DNA of 38,439 nt from a virus: IMG/VR virus record IMGVR_UViG_3300042890_002106, positions 1 to 38,439 of that record. One strand, written 5' to 3'. Under the pieces are notes generated by a model. It worked only from the letters and a program-made list of their open reading frames with translations. It searched no databases and was not told where the DNA came from. The position numbers and the translations under genes were made by a program. Shown here piece by piece: positions 7,110 to 35,869 of this stretch (the stretch's first letter is position 1; each line of letters opens with the position of its first letter).

Positions 7110-8415
<1,306 letters not shown>

Positions 8416-23829: not shown

Positions 23830-24197
23830 TCCGCACCCCTTGATTGCAGGATCACAGAGAACGCCTCAGCCGCCGCCTTCTGGTAACGGATGTGGCAGGC
23901 GTTCAACGCCTCGCTCACCATCCGCCGAGCGTGTGGACGCTCCCTGTTTGCACTCGCACGGCCGAGGTAAAACGCCTTTACCAAAAGCTCTGCCGGATGC
24001 TCGTTGGAGCTGAGCAATTGTTTCAGGCCGACCGACTCCCAATCACGCTCGTGAGCGAAGCACCCGAGCTCCTCGTCTCGGATGAAACGGGCCTTGCGGT
24101 CCTGCTCGGCCTGGTCCTCCATGTAGTGATGCCAAGGTCCGTTTGCTGGATCGCCCTCGGGCCGCGGCCGGACGCGGTCTTCTTCAACCTTGGACAT
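23826..24197 (-). CDS. small hypothetical protein, 123 aa
   Basis: A 123-aa protein with start ATG 24197 inside the RecT end, preceded by GAGGAG. It is helical and strongly charged (EDQAEQDRKARFIRDEELGCF, AELLVKAFYLGRASANRER). It follows RecT and could be a recombination partner. A nuclease motif, as expected for a RecE or exonuclease partner, is not visible. Confidence 0.6.
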   Translation of the reverse strand: MSKVEEDRVRPRPEGDPANGPWHHYMEDQAEQDRKARFIRDEELGCFAHERDWESVGLKQLLSSNEHPAELLVKAFYLGRASANRERPHARRMVSEALNACHIRYQKAAAEAFSVILQSRGAE

Positions 24198-24996
24198 GGA
24201 TGGGCTCCTCGTAGGCATCGCCCTGGATCAACTCGCTCTTGCCGTTGGCGAGGTTGAGCAGCTCGTCGACGTTGGCCGCGGTAAAGAGCCCGTCAGCGTG
24301 TCGCTCGTTGACCGCTCGCACAATCTGGTCGAGCTGGGCCATCGACTTGGCCGCGTTGATGGCCAATCTGGCCTTGCCCATGCGGTCGTCTGTCGCCACA
24401 GCCTTGGCCTCTAGGCGGGGCTGCTCGGGCTTCTGCGGGGCCGCGGGAGCCACCGTGTCAGCCGGGTAGTCCTGAGCTTCCTCAGCGGTCACGAGGCCCT
24501 TCAGAACGTCTGGGAACGCGTCACGCAGGGCAAAGCCTCGAGCACGAAGCTGGAGCATCCGTTTCGGATACTGCGTCCAAGGGCCCGACTTGCCCCACAG
24601 CCCGGCCCGGACGGCGTCGGCAACGCTGAACTGCGTCACCGAGGGGGCCGGGTAACCGCGCCGCTTGGTCTCGCAGACGGCGACCATCTTGTCGCCGTCG
24701 CCAGCTACAGACTCTTTGACGTACTCGCAGACGGGCGAGCCCATCACGAGGGCCAGGGCGGCATCGCCCCAGATCGAGGGCCGGCCGTTGATCACGGCCA
24801 CGCTCTGGATCGACTGCATCGGCCCGAGGCCGATCTCAGCCCCGTGCTGGATAGCCAGGATGCAGCTCTCGGGCTTGTTCTGAAAATCCTTGGGTGCGAA
24901 CTGGCTGGAGGCCAGCATCTTCCCGAATCGCATCGCCTCATCGACCGTGTGGAGCGTCAGGCCCCGCGGCTCGGTCGTGGTCAGTCCTGTTGTCAT
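24184..24996 (-). CDS. recT: RecT-family single-strand annealing protein
   Basis: A 270-aa protein. The core LGPMQSIQSVAVINGRPSIWGDAALALVMG, YGKSGPW-like GLWGKSGPWTQYPKRMLQLRARGFALRDAFPDVL and GLVTAEEAQDYP are signature stretches of phage RecT/Bet-type annealing proteins. The C-terminal 90 residues (Pro/Gln rich, then helical) are variable as in other family members. It anneals complementary ssDNA in recombination and replication repair. No exonuclease partner is recognised in the window. Confidence 0.9.
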   Translation of the reverse strand: MTTGLTTTEPRGLTLHTVDEAMRFGKMLASSQFAPKDFQNKPESCILAIQHGAEIGLGPMQSIQSVAVINGRPSIWGDAALALVMGSPVCEYVKESVAGDGDKMVAVCETKRRGYPAPSVTQFSVADAVRAGLWGKSGPWTQYPKRMLQLRARGFALRDAFPDVLKGLVTAEEAQDYPADTVAPAAPQKPEQPRLEAKAVATDDRMGKARLAINAAKSMAQLDQIVRAVNERHADGLFTAANVDELLNLANGKSELIQGDAYEEPIHVQG

Positions 24997-26080: not shown

Positions 26081-26137
26081 GTGGGCATCACGGGGCGGAA
26101 TCGCGCACAGATTGCTAAGCAGAGGGCATCTCAATGA
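26081..26137 (+). CDS. possible 18-codon leader peptide before integrase
   Basis: A frame from GTG 26081 to TGA 26135..26137 overlaps the integrase ATG at 26134 (ATGA). GGAGGAG lies 10 bases upstream of the GTG. The peptide MGITGRNRAQIAKQRASQ is basic and shows no motif. It may exist to couple integrase translation. The long spacing makes it a weak call. Confidence 0.35.
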   Translation: MGITGRNRAQIAKQRASQ

Positions 26138-27042
26138 CAGTCCGTGAACTGCTGGTGTCGCGGTACGCACCGCTTCATCAGCTCACACCACGCAGCGTGG
26201 TGATCTACAAGGGAACCATCGACCACTGGGCCAAGTTTCTTGGCAGGGAACCGTTGCTTTCCGATTTTGACGATCTCGAGGTATCGCGGTTCCTTGCGGA
26301 TCGCGCCACCCACCAGTGCGGCGGCAAGCCTATCTCCGCGAACACCGTGTCAAAAGACAAAGCCCAAATCTCCACGCTGTGGTCGTGGGCCGCGAAAAAG
26401 AGGCTGGTGGAACAGTTCCCCAGCCTCCCCCGGACCAAAATTGTCCACCGCACACCCAAGGCAGCGACGGTCGATGCGATGCAGCAACTGATGGCCGCGG
26501 CCGCGACCGGCAAGCGGAAGATGTACGGCGATCTGCCGGTGGCGTGGTTCTGGTCGACGCTGATCCGTGTGGCCTTTGAGACCGGTGAGCGGCGAGGGGC
26601 CCTCATGGCGCTCCGCTGGTCTGAGGTCGACCTCGAGGGGCTTCAGGTGACGTTCCTGGCAGAAACCCGCAAGGGGCGTAGCCGCGACATCGTGCGAGCC
26701 ATCAGCCAGGGCGTGGCCGACCAGCTGCGAGAGCACCGCGGTGCGCCCGGCGAGCTCGTCTGGCGATACCCCGGCAAGCAGCACTCGCTCTACGCGTCGT
26801 GGGATCTGCTCCGCAAGCGGGCCGGCGTCGAGGTGCGGGGCCTGCACTCGATCCGCAAGTCGTCGGCCTCTTACCTCGCCGCGGCCGGGGGAAACGCCTC
26901 GGAGCACCTCGGGCACTCCAACCCGCGGACCACGGCGGTGTACCTTGATCCATCCATCGTGCGGCCACGCGAAACGGCCGTGAGCCGGTTGCCAGAGCTT
27001 GTCAGCCAGGACGCTGAGTTTGTCCCAGAGGAGGCCCCATGA
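26134..27042 (+). CDS. int: tyrosine recombinase / phage integrase
   Basis: A 302-aa integrase. The N-terminal SAM-like core-binding part covers residues 1-100 (VVIYKGTIDHWAKFLG, ANTVSKDKAQISTLWSWAAKK). The catalytic set is visible: Arg153 in FETGERRGALMALRW, Lys180, His238 and Arg241 in LHSIRKSS, His261 in HLGHSNPRTT and nucleophile Tyr270 in AVYLDP. The lone plus-strand gene of normal size in the window, it would integrate the phage DNA at an attB site. The attP core could not be identified. AGAGGG precedes its ATG. Confidence 0.95.
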   Translation: MTVRELLVSRYAPLHQLTPRSVVIYKGTIDHWAKFLGREPLLSDFDDLEVSRFLADRATHQCGGKPISANTVSKDKAQISTLWSWAAKKRLVEQFPSLPRTKIVHRTPKAATVDAMQQLMAAAATGKRKMYGDLPVAWFWSTLIRVAFETGERRGALMALRWSEVDLEGLQVTFLAETRKGRSRDIVRAISQGVADQLREHRGAPGELVWRYPGKQHSLYASWDLLRKRAGVEVRGLHSIRKSSASYLAAAGGNASEHLGHSNPRTTAVYLDPSIVRPRETAVSRLPELVSQDAEFVPEEAP

Positions 27043-27377: not shown

Positions 27378-27682
27378 GATTTCCTCGACTCGCGGTAGAG
27401 CACCAGGGCGATGACTGCGTAGGCGGCGATGTCCATCAGCGTGTCTTCGATGCCGTCGAACTCGACGCGGCCGCGGCGGAAGTAGCTCCGCAGGCGGTGC
27501 ATCTTGTCGCTGATCCGCAGGATGCAGCCGGCCCACGGGGAGACGTTGATCACGTCTGAGCTCAAGCGGATGTTGCTCAGGGCATCTTCATCGCAGCCGT
27601 AGTCGAGCGTCTTTCGCAGGTGCAGATGCTTGATCTCGTCGAGCACGGAGCAGAACTCAGCAGAGCCGGGGCGCAGGTTCAT
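27266..27682 (-). CDS. DUF1599 (Nmad1) nucleotide-modification-associated protein
   Basis: A 138-aa frame from ATG 27682, overlapping the phosphoesterase stop. Its first 100 residues match the DUF1599 pattern: LRKTLDYGCDEDAL, GCILRISDKMHRLRSYFRRG and DGIEDTLMDIAAYAVIALVLYRES. The domain is described as nucleotide modification associated domain 1, of uncertain activity, possibly handling modified nucleotides or MazG-like pyrophosphate hydrolysis. The last 37 residues are low in family likeness and lie over the next gene, so the frame may originally have ended near 27377, or a frameshift extended it. Confidence 0.8.
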   Translation of the reverse strand: MNLRPGSAEFCSVLDEIKHLHLRKTLDYGCDEDALSNIRLSSDVINVSPWAGCILRISDKMHRLRSYFRRGRVEFDGIEDTLMDIAAYAVIALVLYRESRKSCQSSSPSPKTTLCGSSIEHVDFREPGPEPAAHSRPT

Positions 27683-28746
27683 TTCTTCCTCAGATCGCGG
27701 TCGCAGAACAGGGGGAACGCCTTCGTGGCCTCGTGCCGCTCGTGGTCGATCACCACGCAGGCTTGGCAGGGCGGCTCGTAATTGGCCTTGATGCGGACAG
27801 CGTATGCGGAGTGTCCAATCACCGAGCCGTTGCTGACGTAGCGGCCGGATCGGCCCCAGCTGAACTGGTGCCAGTGACCGAGGCACGTGAGATCGGCACG
27901 GAGCGTCGCATCCCATGCGGCGATGCTCTTGTTGAGCGGCACGTGGATGCCGCCGATGCCGCCCTGAAACTTCACGGCGTGCCCGTGGTGGAAGCGGACG
28001 CGGAAGCCGTCGAGGTCGAGCACGTTGAGATAGCCGGTGCCGACGTGCCAGCGGACGTTGGCTTTCGTCTCGGCCGCGGCAAGCGTCAGGTAGAGATGCT
28101 GCTCAAACGAGTGCTCCATCTCGGTGCCGATGCGCAACTTGTCGGTGCTGCGGCCGTGGTTGCCAGAGTTTGTCGCCACGATCACCTCGTCGGCCTGGCC
28201 GGCGACGGCGTCGAGGAATCCGCGGATCCGCTCCCCGGCCCAGCGGGTGGCTGCAAGCGGGGCCAGCTGGGCGAGCTCGGCGGTGTCGTCGTGGATGTGG
28301 CCGCTGAGAAAGTCGCCACCGAGCCAGACCACCACGCGGCGGATGTCGGCCAATCTCCTCTCGTGCTCAAGCATGACGGCCAGCCGCTCGCCGAGCTCAG
28401 CGATCCGCTGGTCGGCCACGTCCAGGCTGTAGTCGTTGAGGCCGTTGACCGTCGCCGGGTCGACGCGTTCCTCGACGTGCCAGTCGGACAGCAGCACCAG
28501 CATGGTGGCCGCGTGCCGCTTGGCCTTGCCGGGCCTCTGGCGTGCCCTGTGCGGGGCGATGCCGCGGAGGCCTGCCATCGCGTCGGCCCGGGCCCGCTCG
28601 GCGTCTATGCGGCCAAGAGCGGCCTTGTACTTGCTGCGGAGCCCAGCGGCCTCGGCACGGAGCCGGGCAAGCTCTGCATCGCGGTCGAGGTTGTCTTGCT
28701 CGAGCGCACCCTCGCGGACGGCGTCGATCAGCTTTTTCTGAGCCAT
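27679..28746 (-). CDS. calcineurin-like metallophosphoesterase
   Basis: A 355-aa protein from ATG 28746 with AAGGAG upstream. A charged coiled-coil start (residues about 17-56) precedes the metallophosphoesterase core: LLSDWHVEE (Asp88, His90), WLGGDFLSGH (Asp145), TNSGNHGRS (Asn196, His197), HHGH near 253-256 and GHWHQF at 290-295. All five metal-binding motifs are in order. Substrates of this group include nucleic acids, nucleotides and phosphoproteins. It lies in the last part of the late operon together with DUF1599, so a nucleotide or DNA end role is a reasonable guess. Confidence 0.9.
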   Translation of the reverse strand: MAQKKLIDAVREGALEQDNLDRDAELARLRAEAAGLRSKYKAALGRIDAERARADAMAGLRGIAPHRARQRPGKAKRHAATMLVLLSDWHVEERVDPATVNGLNDYSLDVADQRIAELGERLAVMLEHERRLADIRRVVVWLGGDFLSGHIHDDTAELAQLAPLAATRWAGERIRGFLDAVAGQADEVIVATNSGNHGRSTDKLRIGTEMEHSFEQHLYLTLAAAETKANVRWHVGTGYLNVLDLDGFRVRFHHGHAVKFQGGIGGIHVPLNKSIAAWDATLRADLTCLGHWHQFSWGRSGRYVSNGSVIGHSAYAVRIKANYEPPCQACVVIDHERHEATKAFPLFCDRDLRKK

Positions 28747-31296: not shown

Positions 31297-32169
31297 TCAG
31301 AACGGCGGGGTGCCGAAGTAGGTTGTGAAGTTGACCTCGGGATAGATCCGGCGGGTGAGGATGTCGGGGGCAACCGAGCTAGTTTTCTGCGTGCCGTCTG
31401 TGTTCAGGGGCTGCGGCGAAGAGGCTCGGTACGTCAGCCCGTCATCGCCCACCACTGTCACAGGCTTTTTGGAGCTACCTGAGTAGTAGTGCCAGCCGAC
31501 GTGCGGCAGCAGGAGATCGTGGCCGGATCGCCGGTAGACGAGCTCGGCACCGACTTGCCAGTAGTTCACCACCAGGCCGTTGACGACCTCGCTGCTCTGC
31601 CGGCCGCTGATGCCGGCACAGAACCACTGGTGAGCCGTGCCAAACAGGAACGCACCGGTGTTGACCGAGTTGGTCACGGCCGCGGCGAGCGAGGCCGGGA
31701 ACGTCGGCCGGTTGCCGCTGATCGTGAGGCGCACTTCGCCCTCGTTGACCGTCAGCCCCTCAAAGTAGTCGTTGGCACCGTTGATCAGCGGCTTGAGGTT
31801 GGTGTTGCCGCTGCCGTCGTAGTAGACGAGGCAAGGCACCTGAGAGCCGCCGGTCGTGAACTCCCACACGTCTGGCCGCACCAGCGGGTTCGGCTGAAAG
31901 CCGCCCTCGGAGCCCGGCGGCGGCACCTCGAAAGAGTAGGCAATCTCGACGTGGTGCCGGTCAGGCTCGGTCACCTGAGCGTCGGTGCAGACGAGGTAGC
32001 TGTACTCGGGGTGCGACGAGCCGTGGAAGATGCCGATGGTGTTGAGCGAGGCTTGGTGCGTGATCGGCTCGGTGACGGTGATCACCCACCGCGTGCCGGC
32101 GCGGGGCGGCTCGCCAAGCTTGTGGCTGAAGGTTCGCGGGAGCACTTCGCGGTAGGAGACAACGCTCAT
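31297..32169 (-). CDS. tail protein downstream of tape measure (tail-tip candidate)
   Basis: A 290-aa protein from ATG 32169 overlapping the tape-measure stop (ATGA). It is beta rich with GTRWVITVTEPI, HHVEIAYSFEVPP and LYRASSPQPL-type segments and has no metal or nuclease motif. Proteins in this position often form the distal tail or baseplate hub. Here the identification is by synteny only. Confidence 0.65.
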   Translation of the reverse strand: MSVVSYREVLPRTFSHKLGEPPRAGTRWVITVTEPITHQASLNTIGIFHGSSHPEYSYLVCTDAQVTEPDRHHVEIAYSFEVPPPGSEGGFQPNPLVRPDVWEFTTGGSQVPCLVYYDGSGNTNLKPLINGANDYFEGLTVNEGEVRLTISGNRPTFPASLAAAVTNSVNTGAFLFGTAHQWFCAGISGRQSSEVVNGLVVNYWQVGAELVYRRSGHDLLLPHVGWHYYSGSSKKPVTVVGDDGLTYRASSPQPLNTDGTQKTSSVAPDILTRRIYPEVNFTTYFGTPPF

Positions 32170-34079
32170 GCACCACCCATGATTTCGGCCTTCTGGGCTT
32201 GCAGCTCACGCAGGTCCTGCCGCAGGCCCACGATCTCGTTGGTCTGCTTGCGGGCCTCAGCGACAGCGGGATCCTCGCGGCCGGTGGCCAGTGCCAGGAA
32301 CTGGCCGATGCCCTCGCTCGAGCGGATGTCTGCGGCCTTGAGCGGCTCATTGTTGCGGCCGCTCAGGCCGCTGAGTCGCTGAGCCTCGACATCGGCGACA
32401 CGCTGCTCGATCTGGGCCTGGGCCTCGAGCTCGCGGCGGGTGATTTCGTCCACCCTTTGCCGTTGCTCTTCCTTGAGCCGCTTTTCGTATTCCTGAGCCT
32501 GCCGAACGCCGTCGACAACGTCGTCGATGCGGGCCTTTTCCTCTTGGCGGGCAGCGTTGATCTCTTCGGTGATCCGCAGCACCTCGCCGGCAGAGTCAGC
32601 GATCAGCTGCTGTGCGAGGGCGGCATCTTTGGCACCGTCGTTGGCGCTCTCGATGTCGAACTTGAGAAGCTCAAAGGCGTCGAGCAGCTCCTGCGGCACG
32701 AGCTCGACGGTGCCGAGGTCGGCAGCGAGCCGGCGGAAGGCCTGGCCGGCCTCGTCAACCACGCCCTGCGTCAGCGAGGCGTTGGTGACATCAAGGGGGA
32801 CTTTGAAGGCAACGCTTAGTTCTTTCCCAAGGCCTGCGGCCCCCTGAGTGGCTTTTGTGATCTGATCCTCAAGCTTCTTCGCCTCATCGGTTGCTGCTTT
32901 CGTAGAGTCGGCAACCTCTGCATTGGCTTCCTTCGTCTTGAACGAGTATTCAATTGCAGCCGCACCAACGGCACCCAAAAGCACAACGAGCAGGCCGATG
33001 CCAGTAGATGCCAGGAGGCCCTTGATGGCGAGAGACAATCCGGCTGTTGCCGCCGTAGCCGACACAGCGGAAAGCCGATACGCCAGCAGCGCCGCGGACG
33101 CAGCGGCAGCGCCGACAGCGGCTCCGTTGAGGTTGGTGACGAGAAACCCTACTGCTGTGGAGATCACAGAAAAGAAGCCGAACAGCAGCGAGACAGTGCC
33201 CTTGATGATTGCAAAAATGCTCTGCAGATTCTGGGTGGACAACGTCAGCTCATTGAACGACGCAATGAGCTGATCCGCGATCTCTCTTTCGTTCAGAGAA
33301 CCCAAGAACTCTGCAAACGAATTGGCAGCTTGAGTGAGGGCCGGTGCCAACTCGCTAATAATTCTTGACGTGAGGCCCTTGAACGATGCCGAGACCTTGG
33401 CAATCGAGTCGTCGAGCCCGGCGAGGGCCCCGACTTGGTCCTCGGAGAGAACCGTGCCGAGCCGTTCGGCCTCTTCCCGCATTTCCTGCAGGAATCCGGC
33501 CCCCTCTTGGAAGACGGGCACTAGGTCGACGCCGCTCTTGCCAAACAGGCTGACCGCGGCCGCGGCCTGCTGGGCAGGGTTTGGGAGGGCGGCGATGGAG
33601 GCGGCAATCTTCTCAAACGCCACCTGCGGCGAGAGCGTGGAAAGCTCTTGGACAGACAGCCCGAGGTCGGTAAAGGCCTTGATGGCCGCGCCGTTGCCGG
33701 TCTGGGCCTCGCCAAGGTTGATCGTCAGTTTCTGGAGCGACTTGCCAAAGGTATCGATGCTTACGCCGGACTGATCCGCCGCAAACTGGTAGGCCTGGAG
33801 AGCGGTGCTCGAGACGCCGGTACGCTTCGACAGGTCGTCGATGGCAGCGACAGCCGAGGCAGACCCGACGACCATGCTCTGGAACGAACTGGCGGCGCTC
33901 GTCACGGCCGACAGGAACGCCCGGGAGATCTCGATGGTCTTGAGCACGCTGAGGTCGGAGGCGGCTTGCTTGCCGGCCCGGCCCATTGAGTCAAGCCGCG
34001 TGTTGACATCGCGCACGGACGCAGCCAGAGAGCTTGTGCTCGCTGAAATCTGCATCGACAGTGCGAGTGGCGTGCTCAT
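32166..34079 (-). CDS. tail tape measure protein
   Basis: A 637-aa protein of mixed coiled coil and hydrophobic segments. It opens with MSTPLALSMQISASTSSLAASV and VNTRLDSMGRAGKQAASD. Two long hydrophobic regions lie at about 285-375 (VSLLFGFFSVISTAVGFLV, LLVVLLGAVGAAAIEY). The C-terminal third is a charged coiled coil (AEVADSTKAATDEAKKL, RRELEAQAQIEQRVADVEAQRL). These features and its place after the tail chaperones identify it. Using about 1.5 Angstrom per residue, the tail would be near 95 nm, an estimate only. Confidence 0.9.
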   Translation of the reverse strand: MSTPLALSMQISASTSSLAASVRDVNTRLDSMGRAGKQAASDLSVLKTIEISRAFLSAVTSAASSFQSMVVGSASAVAAIDDLSKRTGVSSTALQAYQFAADQSGVSIDTFGKSLQKLTINLGEAQTGNGAAIKAFTDLGLSVQELSTLSPQVAFEKIAASIAALPNPAQQAAAAVSLFGKSGVDLVPVFQEGAGFLQEMREEAERLGTVLSEDQVGALAGLDDSIAKVSASFKGLTSRIISELAPALTQAANSFAEFLGSLNEREIADQLIASFNELTLSTQNLQSIFAIIKGTVSLLFGFFSVISTAVGFLVTNLNGAAVGAAAASAALLAYRLSAVSATAATAGLSLAIKGLLASTGIGLLVVLLGAVGAAAIEYSFKTKEANAEVADSTKAATDEAKKLEDQITKATQGAAGLGKELSVAFKVPLDVTNASLTQGVVDEAGQAFRRLAADLGTVELVPQELLDAFELLKFDIESANDGAKDAALAQQLIADSAGEVLRITEEINAARQEEKARIDDVVDGVRQAQEYEKRLKEEQRQRVDEITRRELEAQAQIEQRVADVEAQRLSGLSGRNNEPLKAADIRSSEGIGQFLALATGREDPAVAEARKQTNEIVGLRQDLRELQAQKAEIMGGA

Positions 34080-34324
34080 TCGAAGTCAGCCTGGAGGCGT
34101 CTTAGGGCGTCAGCATCTTGGGTGGCGTGACGCGGTGCGTGGTCATCAAGGCCGATGATTTTCCGGGGGTCCAAGGTCGACTTGCTGTAGGGGGCGAGGG
34201 ACGCCGCAGCGAGGATCCCTGTCTGCAACCAGTCGTCACCGATCCGCTCGTAGTACCGATCCACCGCGATCCACTCTGAGAACTCGACCGAATCCATCCG
34301 GTCGAGCAACTCGCCAACCGTCAT
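34076..34324 (-). CDS. T-type tail chaperone frame (reached by frameshift)
   Basis: The frame has an ATG at 34324 but lacks a good ribosome site in front (CTGAAG). It encodes EFSEWIAVDRYYERIGDDWL and TGILAAASLAPYSKS, the sequence pattern of minor-tail T-type C-terminal domains. Expression most likely comes only from -1 frameshifting of the upstream frame. Its stop overlaps the tape-measure start (ATGA). Confidence 0.75.
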   Translation of the reverse strand: MTVGELLDRMDSVEFSEWIAVDRYYERIGDDWLQTGILAAASLAPYSKSTLDPRKIIGLDDHAPRHATQDADALRRLQADFE

Positions 34325-34719
34325 CTTCAGATGCCCGGCGAGGCGGAAGGCGAATCGCCGTTCTGGCCGGGCGTTGAGTTTTTTGCCAGATCCTGAATGT
34401 CGGTCTCGGTCATCCGGTTGTGCTTGATCGCCGCATCGAACAGCCGCGAGCCGATGGACGCGTCGAGGGCCTGCAGCGTCTCGACTCCTTCAGGGCCCGG
34501 GAACATCAGCTTGCCGTCGATGTCGCACAGGCACCGCGACAGGTACTGGCTGCGGAAATCGTTGGGCAGCTTGCCGCCGCCGTCCACCGAGGCTTTTTCG
34601 TAGCTGTCGCGGTCGCGGAGCGTCATGGCACGGATGCAGACCTCCCCGAGACCGGGGATGTTCACCGTCGTAATGTTGGGCCGGCAGGCCCGTTTTAGAT
34701 CGTCGGCTGTGAGCGGCAT
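34076..34719 (-). CDS. predicted frameshifted tail assembly chaperone (G-T type)
   Basis: This span is the predicted fusion product of the two tail chaperone frames. Ribosomes read 114 codons from ATG 34719 to the AAC of the slippery site, slip back one base at A AAA AAC (34378..34384, minus) and read 100 more codons to the stop at 34076. The joined region LNARPERRFAFRLAGHLK is followed by TVGELLDRMDSVEFSEWIAV, matching the conserved L-x-x-x-L-G-x-x-x-x-E-L and E-F-x-E-W pattern of phage gpGT C-terminal domains. The product is about 214 aa. It would be the tail-assembly chaperone that loads the tape measure. Confidence 0.85.
34327..34719 (-). CDS. tail assembly chaperone, unshifted (G-type) product
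   Basis: A 130-aa protein, start ATG 34719. It reads MPLTADDLKRACRPN and then RAMTLRDRDSYEKASV, with a beta-alpha layout seen in short tail assembly chaperones. The last 16 residues after the slippery site (STPGQNGDSPSASPGI) are disordered and probably just the product of termination in the zero frame. It is the more abundant partner of the frameshift pair and lies between the tail tube genes and the tape measure. Confidence 0.82.
   Translation of the reverse strand: MPLTADDLKRACRPNITTVNIPGLGEVCIRAMTLRDRDSYEKASVDGGGKLPNDFRSQYLSRCLCDIDGKLMFPGPEGVETLQALDASIGSRLFDAAIKHNRMTETDIQDLAKNSTPGQNGDSPSASPGI
34378..34384 (-). promoter_or_regulatory. programmed -1 ribosomal frameshift site A AAA AAC
   Basis: The minus-strand heptamer AAAAAAC lies in frame as GCA AAA AAC, the exact X XXY YYZ register. 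Slipping one base puts ribosomes into the downstream frame, which is open from here to 34076. The downstream bases are GC rich and could form a stimulatory structure. This is the usual signal of siphoviral tail chaperone genes. Confidence 0.88.
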
Positions 34720-34722
34720 GGA

Positions 34723-35043
34723 TCACCCATCGAGGAGTTTGAAAGACACGGAGTAACGCGTGACGCCGTTGAGCTCGGGCGTCTGCGTGAACCCCAGATA
34801 GAGTGCTTGGGTCGTCAAGCTGACACCCGCGCCGCTGATCACCAGCTGCTTGCGCAGGCCGTACTCGGCCGACGAGACATTCGCCGTGCCGTAGCACTCG
34901 ACGGTGCACGTGCCGGCCTCATCGGTCCAGACCACGGAGCGGCCCTTGCTGGGCCCGCCTGCGTAGCTCGGGGCCGCGGCGGTCACCTCGAGGAACGAGA
35001 CACCACCCCACGTGACGGAGATTCCGGTGGAAAAGGTGGCCAC
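34723..35043 (-). CDS. tail tube-type or tail-completion structural protein, 106 aa
   Basis: A beta-rich protein with MATFSTGISVTWGGVSFLEV, VVWTDEAGTCTVECYGT and YSVSFKLLDG at the end. Small proteins of this kind sit between the major tail gene and the chaperones. It is probably a second tail tube or tail-associated protein. Start ATG 35043 has GGTGGAAAAGG upstream. Confidence 0.6.
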   Translation of the reverse strand: MATFSTGISVTWGGVSFLEVTAAAPSYAGGPSKGRSVVWTDEAGTCTVECYGTANVSSAEYGLRKQLVISGAGVSLTTQALYLGFTQTPELNGVTRYSVSFKLLDG

Positions 35044-35059: not shown

Positions 35060-35449
35060 TCAGACTCGGGCGATGCGGATAGTGGCAGAACCCTTGATCA
35101 CGTCGTTGGTGGCGAGCGTGATCGTCGAGGAACGCACCGTGCCGGCAGCAGCGATGGCCAGCCCGCCGGTGATCGTCAGAGTGCCGGTCGTCTTGTCGGC
35201 CAGCGGCGTCTTGCCGATGAAATCGAAGGAGATCTCGCGGCCCGTGTCGGTGGCCGATCCCGACAGCGGCCGAGACTGCGACAGCACTTCGGCACCGGTC
35301 GTAAGACCGAGGTGCGAGATGTCGATTGTGTCGTCGGCACCGGGGTCGGTGAGGTTGTAGACGATGTTTGTGACGACGTAGGCATTCGACGCGGCAGTGT
35401 TGGGAAACTTGAGCGTCGTGCCACTGGAATCATGGGGAGTGTCGGCCAT
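35060..35449 (-). CDS. probable major tail tube protein
   Basis: A 129-aa protein with AGGAG before ATG 35449. It has tail tube-like beta segments: NAYVVTNIVYNLTDPGADDTIDISHLGL, then GREISFDFIGKTPL and GTLTITGGLAIA. Its place after the tail terminator and before the chaperones is that of the major tail protein. It is shorter than many. The 106-aa protein downstream could share the role. Confidence 0.7.
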   Translation of the reverse strand: MADTPHDSSGTTLKFPNTAASNAYVVTNIVYNLTDPGADDTIDISHLGLTTGAEVLSQSRPLSGSATDTGREISFDFIGKTPLADKTTGTLTITGGLAIAAAGTVRSSTITLATNDVIKGSATIRIARV

Positions 35450-35452
35450 GCG

Positions 35453-35869
35453 TCATGTCTCCTGCCAAAGAACTTCGTAGGTCTGACGGACGATGTACAG
35501 GTCGGGCATTTCGGCACCATTGAGGGACGCGAACTGATCGCTTTCATCCTCAAGGCTCGTCTGCCGTACCGTCGTATTGTCGGCGGTGCCGTTGTAACCA
35601 TCCAGAACGCCGCGAATGGCGTCTGCCAGCGTCCTGGCGGCCTCGTAGGTGGTGGCCACGATGTCGTATTCGATCACAACATTGGGCACGCCCATTGGCC
35701 CCGACAGCGTTGCCTGCCGGCGGATGGCTGAACGTCGCCACGTCACCCACGGCAGCGTGACATCGGCGTCGGCTGCCAAAGGGTAAATCTTGGTGCCGAG
35801 TAAACCAGACACTGTGGCATTGGCCACTAGGGCGGCCCGCAGGACAGACTCTGGGCTTTTGAGTGCCAT
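35453..35869 (-). CDS. tail completion/terminator protein (DUF3168-like)
   Basis: A 138-aa protein with MALKSPESVLRAALVANATVSGLLGTKIYPLAAD, ADVTLPWVTWRRS and VIEYDIVATTYEAARTLADAIRGVLDG, the pattern of DUF3168 tail terminators, which cap the tail tube and join it to the head. The position after the gp10-type gene is the classical one. Start ATG 35869 lies 12 bases after the preceding stop. Confidence 0.8.
   Translation of the reverse strand: MALKSPESVLRAALVANATVSGLLGTKIYPLAADADVTLPWVTWRRSAIRRQATLSGPMGVPNVVIEYDIVATTYEAARTLADAIRGVLDGYNGTADNTTVRQTSLEDESDQFASLNGAEMPDLYIVRQTYEVLWQET

Follow-up and report, generated by a model that had tools for sequence, protein, structure and literature searches.

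A programmed −1 ribosomal frameshift very probably yields two tail chaperones, a short G-type protein and a 214-aa GT-type fusion, from one start codon on the minus strand of the window, the whole 38,439-nt stretch of viral DNA analyzed here. Frameshifting of this kind in tail-chaperone genes has been known since phage lambda. We draw this reading from a slip site in the correct register, a −1 frame that is coding upstream of its own ATG, the conservation of the site and of a hairpin behind it, and the family and fold of the two halves, all as read from the sequences. The features concerned are:

34327–34719, minus strand: G-type tail assembly chaperone of the zero frame, 130 aa in total, with 114 aa as far as the slip site and a tail of 16 aa
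34391–34394, minus strand: AGGA, 6 nt ahead of the slip site, tentatively an internal stimulator resembling a Shine-Dalgarno sequence
34378–34384, minus strand: slippery heptamer A_AAA_AAC (zero frame GCA AAA AAC, then TCA)
34375–34377, minus strand: codon TCA directly after the heptamer, a zero-frame stop (TGA, TAG or TAA) in nearly all relatives
34333–34372, minus strand: downstream hairpin, presumed frameshift stimulator, outer stem GCCCGGC/GCCGGGC, ∼5-nt spacer from the heptamer
34322–34324, minus strand: internal ATG of the −1 frame, unlikely as a separate T start and missing in 12 relatives
34076–34378, minus strand: T-type domain in the −1 frame, 100 aa when translated following the slip, stop at 34078–34076
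32166–34079, minus strand: 637-aa tape measure protein, matching PHROG families for tail length tape measures (best E 1.1e-35)
35060–35449, minus strand: likely tail tube (major tail) protein, from position only
35453–35869, minus strand: tail completion/terminator protein, gp17-like (PF11367, E 3e-11; PHROG 347, tail terminator)

The heptamer, its register, the open downstream frame and the 214-aa fusion were all as described in the original prediction, which had been made from the letters of the window. The first A of the heptamer is the third position of a codon, the correct register for a tandem −1 slip, and reading after the slip would continue CTC AAC GCC CGG and on to 34076. By itself the heptamer is unremarkable and proves nothing. 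AAAAAAC occurs once in the window against 1.25 occurrences expected by chance (both strands), so that the case rests on position, register and relatives. In-frame X_XXY_YYZ patterns are found at 46 of 17,164 codon positions in the long minus-strand ORFs of the window, a rate that predicts ∼0.05 such sites for the final 19 codons of the G gene.

Two scans of IMG/VR gave 81 related loci, and both halves could be placed in 79 of these plus the window; a search of the GTDB representative genomes found no relatives. Many of the loci are near-identical, with the 60 nt 3′ of the slip site present in 45 distinct versions. Every one of the 79 IMG/VR loci, like the window, has its second half in the −1 frame, and a canonical X_XXY_YYZ heptamer occupies the same place and register in 78 of the 79 loci. 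It is because of this conservation that we accept the slip site as real; homologs lacking it had been named beforehand as a finding that would overturn the prediction. With the window counted, the canonical sites are A_AAA_AAC (66), G_GGA_AAC (10), G_GGA_AAA (2) and G_GGA_AAT (1). The sole exception, L054, has A_AAA_AUC, one base off canonical, which is either a near-canonical site or a sequencing error. This locus (L054:3261–3270) nevertheless keeps the hairpin, an abutting TAG and the −1 frame. The distant chaperone relatives in phages Madraxi (L082) and REQ1 (L085) have two adjacent ORFs, but the final 30 codons of the first contain no canonical heptamer, which would mean a non-standard slip site or another mechanism. 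The off-canonical site of L054, the lack of a canonical heptamer in Madraxi and REQ1 and a weaker hairpin in the window (below) are the points that we count against frameshifting.

The breadth of this set of relatives also bears on whether the frame change could be a sequencing or assembly error or the mark of a broken gene. The A6 homopolymer is indeed a place where some sequencers err, but 79 loci drawn from many metagenomes share the frame change, most of them with a zero-frame stop abutting the site, and phage genomes have been annotated with a joined CDS at this place. The relatives refute this explanation, and its probability is vanishingly small.

Both halves of the fused protein could be assigned to tail protein families. 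An HMM search, the check suggested at the outset, matched the G half to PHROG 344 (tail assembly chaperone, E 7.6e-16) and the T half to PHROG 337 (tail protein, E 6.8e-08). The latter match begins at fusion residue 119, ahead of the one nearby ATG able to start T alone (residue 133), and scores 33.9 bits on the fusion versus 22.0 bits on the ATG-started ORF. The Pfam family Phage_tail_T (PF06223) matched the window's own sequence below the Pfam cut-off (E 0.0033–0.0055) and was matched at E≤0.05 by 43 of 43 aligned sequences (best E 2.1e-08). Pfam TAC families gave weak matches to the G half in relatives, and NCBIfam gave no match for the G half or the T half. The E-L...E-F-x-E-W pattern expected of tail T domains is present in the T half, as had been claimed (GELLDRMDSVEFSEW); the invariant columns in the 43 aligned second halves include M28, S30, E32, E35 and W36, with L24 nearly so. 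The first half is homologous to known tail assembly chaperones and the second half to the lambda minor tail protein T.

Structure predictions, for which the G and T halves were modelled separately, gave a similar picture. The AlphaFold2 model of the G half, built on the 43-sequence alignment (pLDDT 87), had the HK97 tail assembly chaperone 2OB9 as its top PDB match (Foldseek E 0.0098, prob 1.00, TM 0.57–0.62). The same entry was the only PDB profile match of the G half (E 0.13); it is the best solved-structure match to the G fold, but at 16–20% identity and modest E-values. Viral fold matches of the G model include named tail assembly chaperones. The T model is helical (pLDDT 82, pTM 0.55) with weak fold matches, the top BFVD match being a ‘Minor tail T domain-containing protein’ (E 3.7e-03), and its first helix spans residues 5–16 of the T half, before the ATG.

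In most relatives the zero frame ends at the slip site itself. A stop codon abuts the heptamer in 72 of the 79 canonical-site sequences, window counted (TGA 35, TAG 25, TAA 12); those without are the window and L001–L004, which have TCA, and L019 and L020, which have one extra codon before TAA. In these last two (L019:3333–3345 and L020:2473–2485), G_GGA_AAA is followed by GGC TAA, one codon farther from the stop than in the others. With the preceding C, TCA, TGA, TAG and TAA all give Leu in the −1 frame (CTC in the window, CTG or CTA in relatives). A T-frame stretch upstream of the internal ATG, LN(A/L)RPxRxFxFRLA, is conserved as protein, and columns P5, R7, F9, L13, A14 and L17 at the T-frame start of alignment A4 are invariant. 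Because the zero frame ends right after the site in 72 of 79 sequences, this stretch can be reached there by a shift only. In the window's near relatives, 11 of the 15 variable columns in the pre-ATG stretch are third codon positions of the −1 frame.

These observations weigh heavily on the alternative that G and T are two separate genes, with an 82-aa T started at the ATG at 34324 by re-initiation after the TGA 2 nt upstream. In the window's clade the zero-frame stop (TGA, 34329–34327) adjoins this ATG (34324–34322, residue 133 of the 214-aa fusion), a geometry that permits coupled re-initiation, and the 82-aa ORF alone still weakly matches Phage_tail_T. However, no Shine-Dalgarno-like stretch was seen by eye at a usable distance before the ATG. 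The original statement that the second frame has no ribosome site was therefore right by eye, although it left unmentioned the ATG lying 2 nt after the TGA, which formally allows re-initiation. Moreover, the ATG is missing in L007, L008, L012–L018, L050, L080 and L081; the zero frame of most relatives stops ∼50 nt upstream of it; coding conservation and the PHROG 337 match have already begun before it; and a T protein started there would lack the first of its predicted helices. We judge separate translation of T to be very improbable.

The hairpin downstream of the heptamer is a presumed candidate for a stimulatory RNA structure, its ∼5-nt spacer falling within the 5–9 nt usual for stimulators (PMC7618472). 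The hairpin of the window folds at −21.8 kcal/mol (z −2.28 versus dinucleotide shuffles), and energies are about −30 to −34 kcal/mol in L005–L008 and L012–L018. When the 48-nt downstream stretches (45 distinct sequences) were folded against a background of −1 frames recoded at random with synonymous codons, the mean z was −2.6 and 34 of 45 stretches fell below −1.64, versus mean z values of −0.53 to 0.25 for control stretches farther down the −1 frame. The window's own hairpin gave z of −0.85 to −1.3 in this comparison, weaker than its nearest relatives. We also examined covariation in the named seven-pair outer stem on 39 sequences, where 90% of cells were paired and both sides had changed in 24 cells versus a shuffled mean of 9.9. 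The covariation score was 0.238 versus 0.120 for shuffles (0 of 500 reached it) and at most 0.115 for slid versions of the stem; the shuffles are not a strict probability, since the sequences are related, and the slid controls retain that relatedness. The strongest compensatory case is the column pair 15–50, which is G-C in 20 sequences and C-G in 13. The hairpin is thus conserved beyond synonymous recoding, with compensatory changes. On the other side of the slip site, AGGA is present in 19 of 24 distinct upstream 13-mers, which is suggestive of an internal Shine-Dalgarno-like stimulator, but this conservation may simply reflect conserved Glu/Gln codons.

A conserved hairpin of this kind fits slipping by the ribosome. 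With six consecutive A at the site, transcriptional slippage at the run could instead generate mixed mRNAs, some of them encoding the fusion, but the close relatives L005–L008 and L012–L018 make the same frame change at G_GGA_AAC or G_GGA_AAT, where no homopolymer exceeds 3. Slippage during transcription is accordingly exceedingly improbable. Taken together, family, conservation, frame, stops, ATG loss and hairpin favor −1 ribosomal frameshifting by a wide margin over separate translation, slippage during transcription and errors of sequencing.

Around the chaperone, a tail terminator gene is followed by that of the probable tube protein, then by the chaperone, the −1 frame and the tape measure gene, whose start overlaps the stop codon of T (ATGA). 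The probable tube protein matched nothing in Pfam, PHROG or NCBIfam, and its gene stands where phiSASD1 and Dubu have their major tail protein. Between it and the chaperone lies a 106-aa ORF (34723–35043, minus strand) for which Pfam, PHROGs and NCBIfam gave nothing convincing; the Rhodococcus phages Madraxi and REQ1 also have an unnamed gene between the major tail protein and the chaperone. Judged from gene content, with the tube gene assigned by position only, the locus appears to be of the lambda G/GT type, a G-like gene followed by a −1-frame T-like domain between the tube/terminator genes and the tape measure gene. The order of the genes, the HMM matches of G and T and the predicted fold support the G-T type tail chaperone originally proposed.

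With lambda G/GT, which has the slip site G_GGA_AAG, the locus shares its gene order, a −1 shift late in the first gene and a T-like C-terminal domain (PMC5009743; PMC7618472). In contrast to lambda, the site here is A_AAA_AAC, a conserved downstream hairpin was found and relatives have a stop directly after the site; sequence similarity is weak, with Phage_tail_T below cut-off for the window's own sequence. The Streptomyces phages phiSASD1 (gp35/gp35.1) and Dubu (gp13/gp14) have joined CDSs annotated at the same place and are ∼50% identical to the window at the start of the T half. Their site is G_GGA_AAC followed at once by TGA, whereas the window has A_AAA_AAC and, like the rest of its clade, no abutting stop. 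For tail-chaperone genes, the lambda-type mechanism and the use of either heptamer are on record (PMC5009743; PMC5313236): in Acinetobacter phage Loki (gp12/gp13), AAAAAAC adjoins the stop codon of the chaperone gene (PMC5313236), and G_GGA_AAC and A_AAA_AAC are among the slip sites of the haloarchaeal viruses HCTV-1, -2 and -5 (PMC5009743). Reporter tests of two genes of an HK97-like chaperone cluster gave 6 and 7% (PMC3711429). The locus is an ordinary example of this already known mechanism.

From these data we infer that slipping occurs, that it involves a minority of ribosomes and that G and GT have distinct roles. Most ribosomes would stay in the zero frame, terminate at 34327 and release the short G-type protein. 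The rest, a minority paused at A_AAA_AAC by the hairpin 5 nt downstream and perhaps aided by AGGA on the upstream side, would move back by one base and continue in the −1 frame as far as 34076, producing the GT-type fusion of 214 aa. In lambda-type systems the fusion is a low-level product, tails need both proteins and virions contain neither. If the two parts work as in lambda, G would bind the tape measure protein of the adjacent gene and T would recruit the tail tube protein, so that the G:GT ratio would matter for tail assembly.

The window's clade is sister to the G_GGA_AAC clade in the tree. The zero-frame 16-aa tail after the slip site (STPGQNGDSPSASPGI) is special to this clade, and the lone difference within it (Asn/Ser) is synonymous in the −1 frame. 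The missing abutting stop is the only local peculiarity of the clade, and a small one. Conceivably, without that stop, G termination has moved beside the T-frame ATG, providing free T by coupled re-initiation besides the fusion, with the slip signal re-tuned (A_AAA_AAC, weaker hairpin); we consider this a long shot. The locus adds a well-supported case from an uncultivated phage to the lambda-type frameshifts of tail chaperones. With its relatives (∼80 sequences) it also provides natural variation in the slip site, the abutting stop and the hairpin, suited to comparison in reporters. Annotation should join the G and T ORFs.

Elsewhere in the window, an integrase-like gene lies on the opposite strand (26134–27042, plus strand), and genes for an exonuclease and a RecT-like annealing protein are found on the minus strand (27679–28746 and 24184–24996, respectively). 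Because these genes are present, the phage may be temperate and carry its own recombination genes. A nucleotide-sugar epimerase-like gene (7110–8075, minus strand; PHROG 540, E 1.4e-78) lies near the terminase and portal genes.
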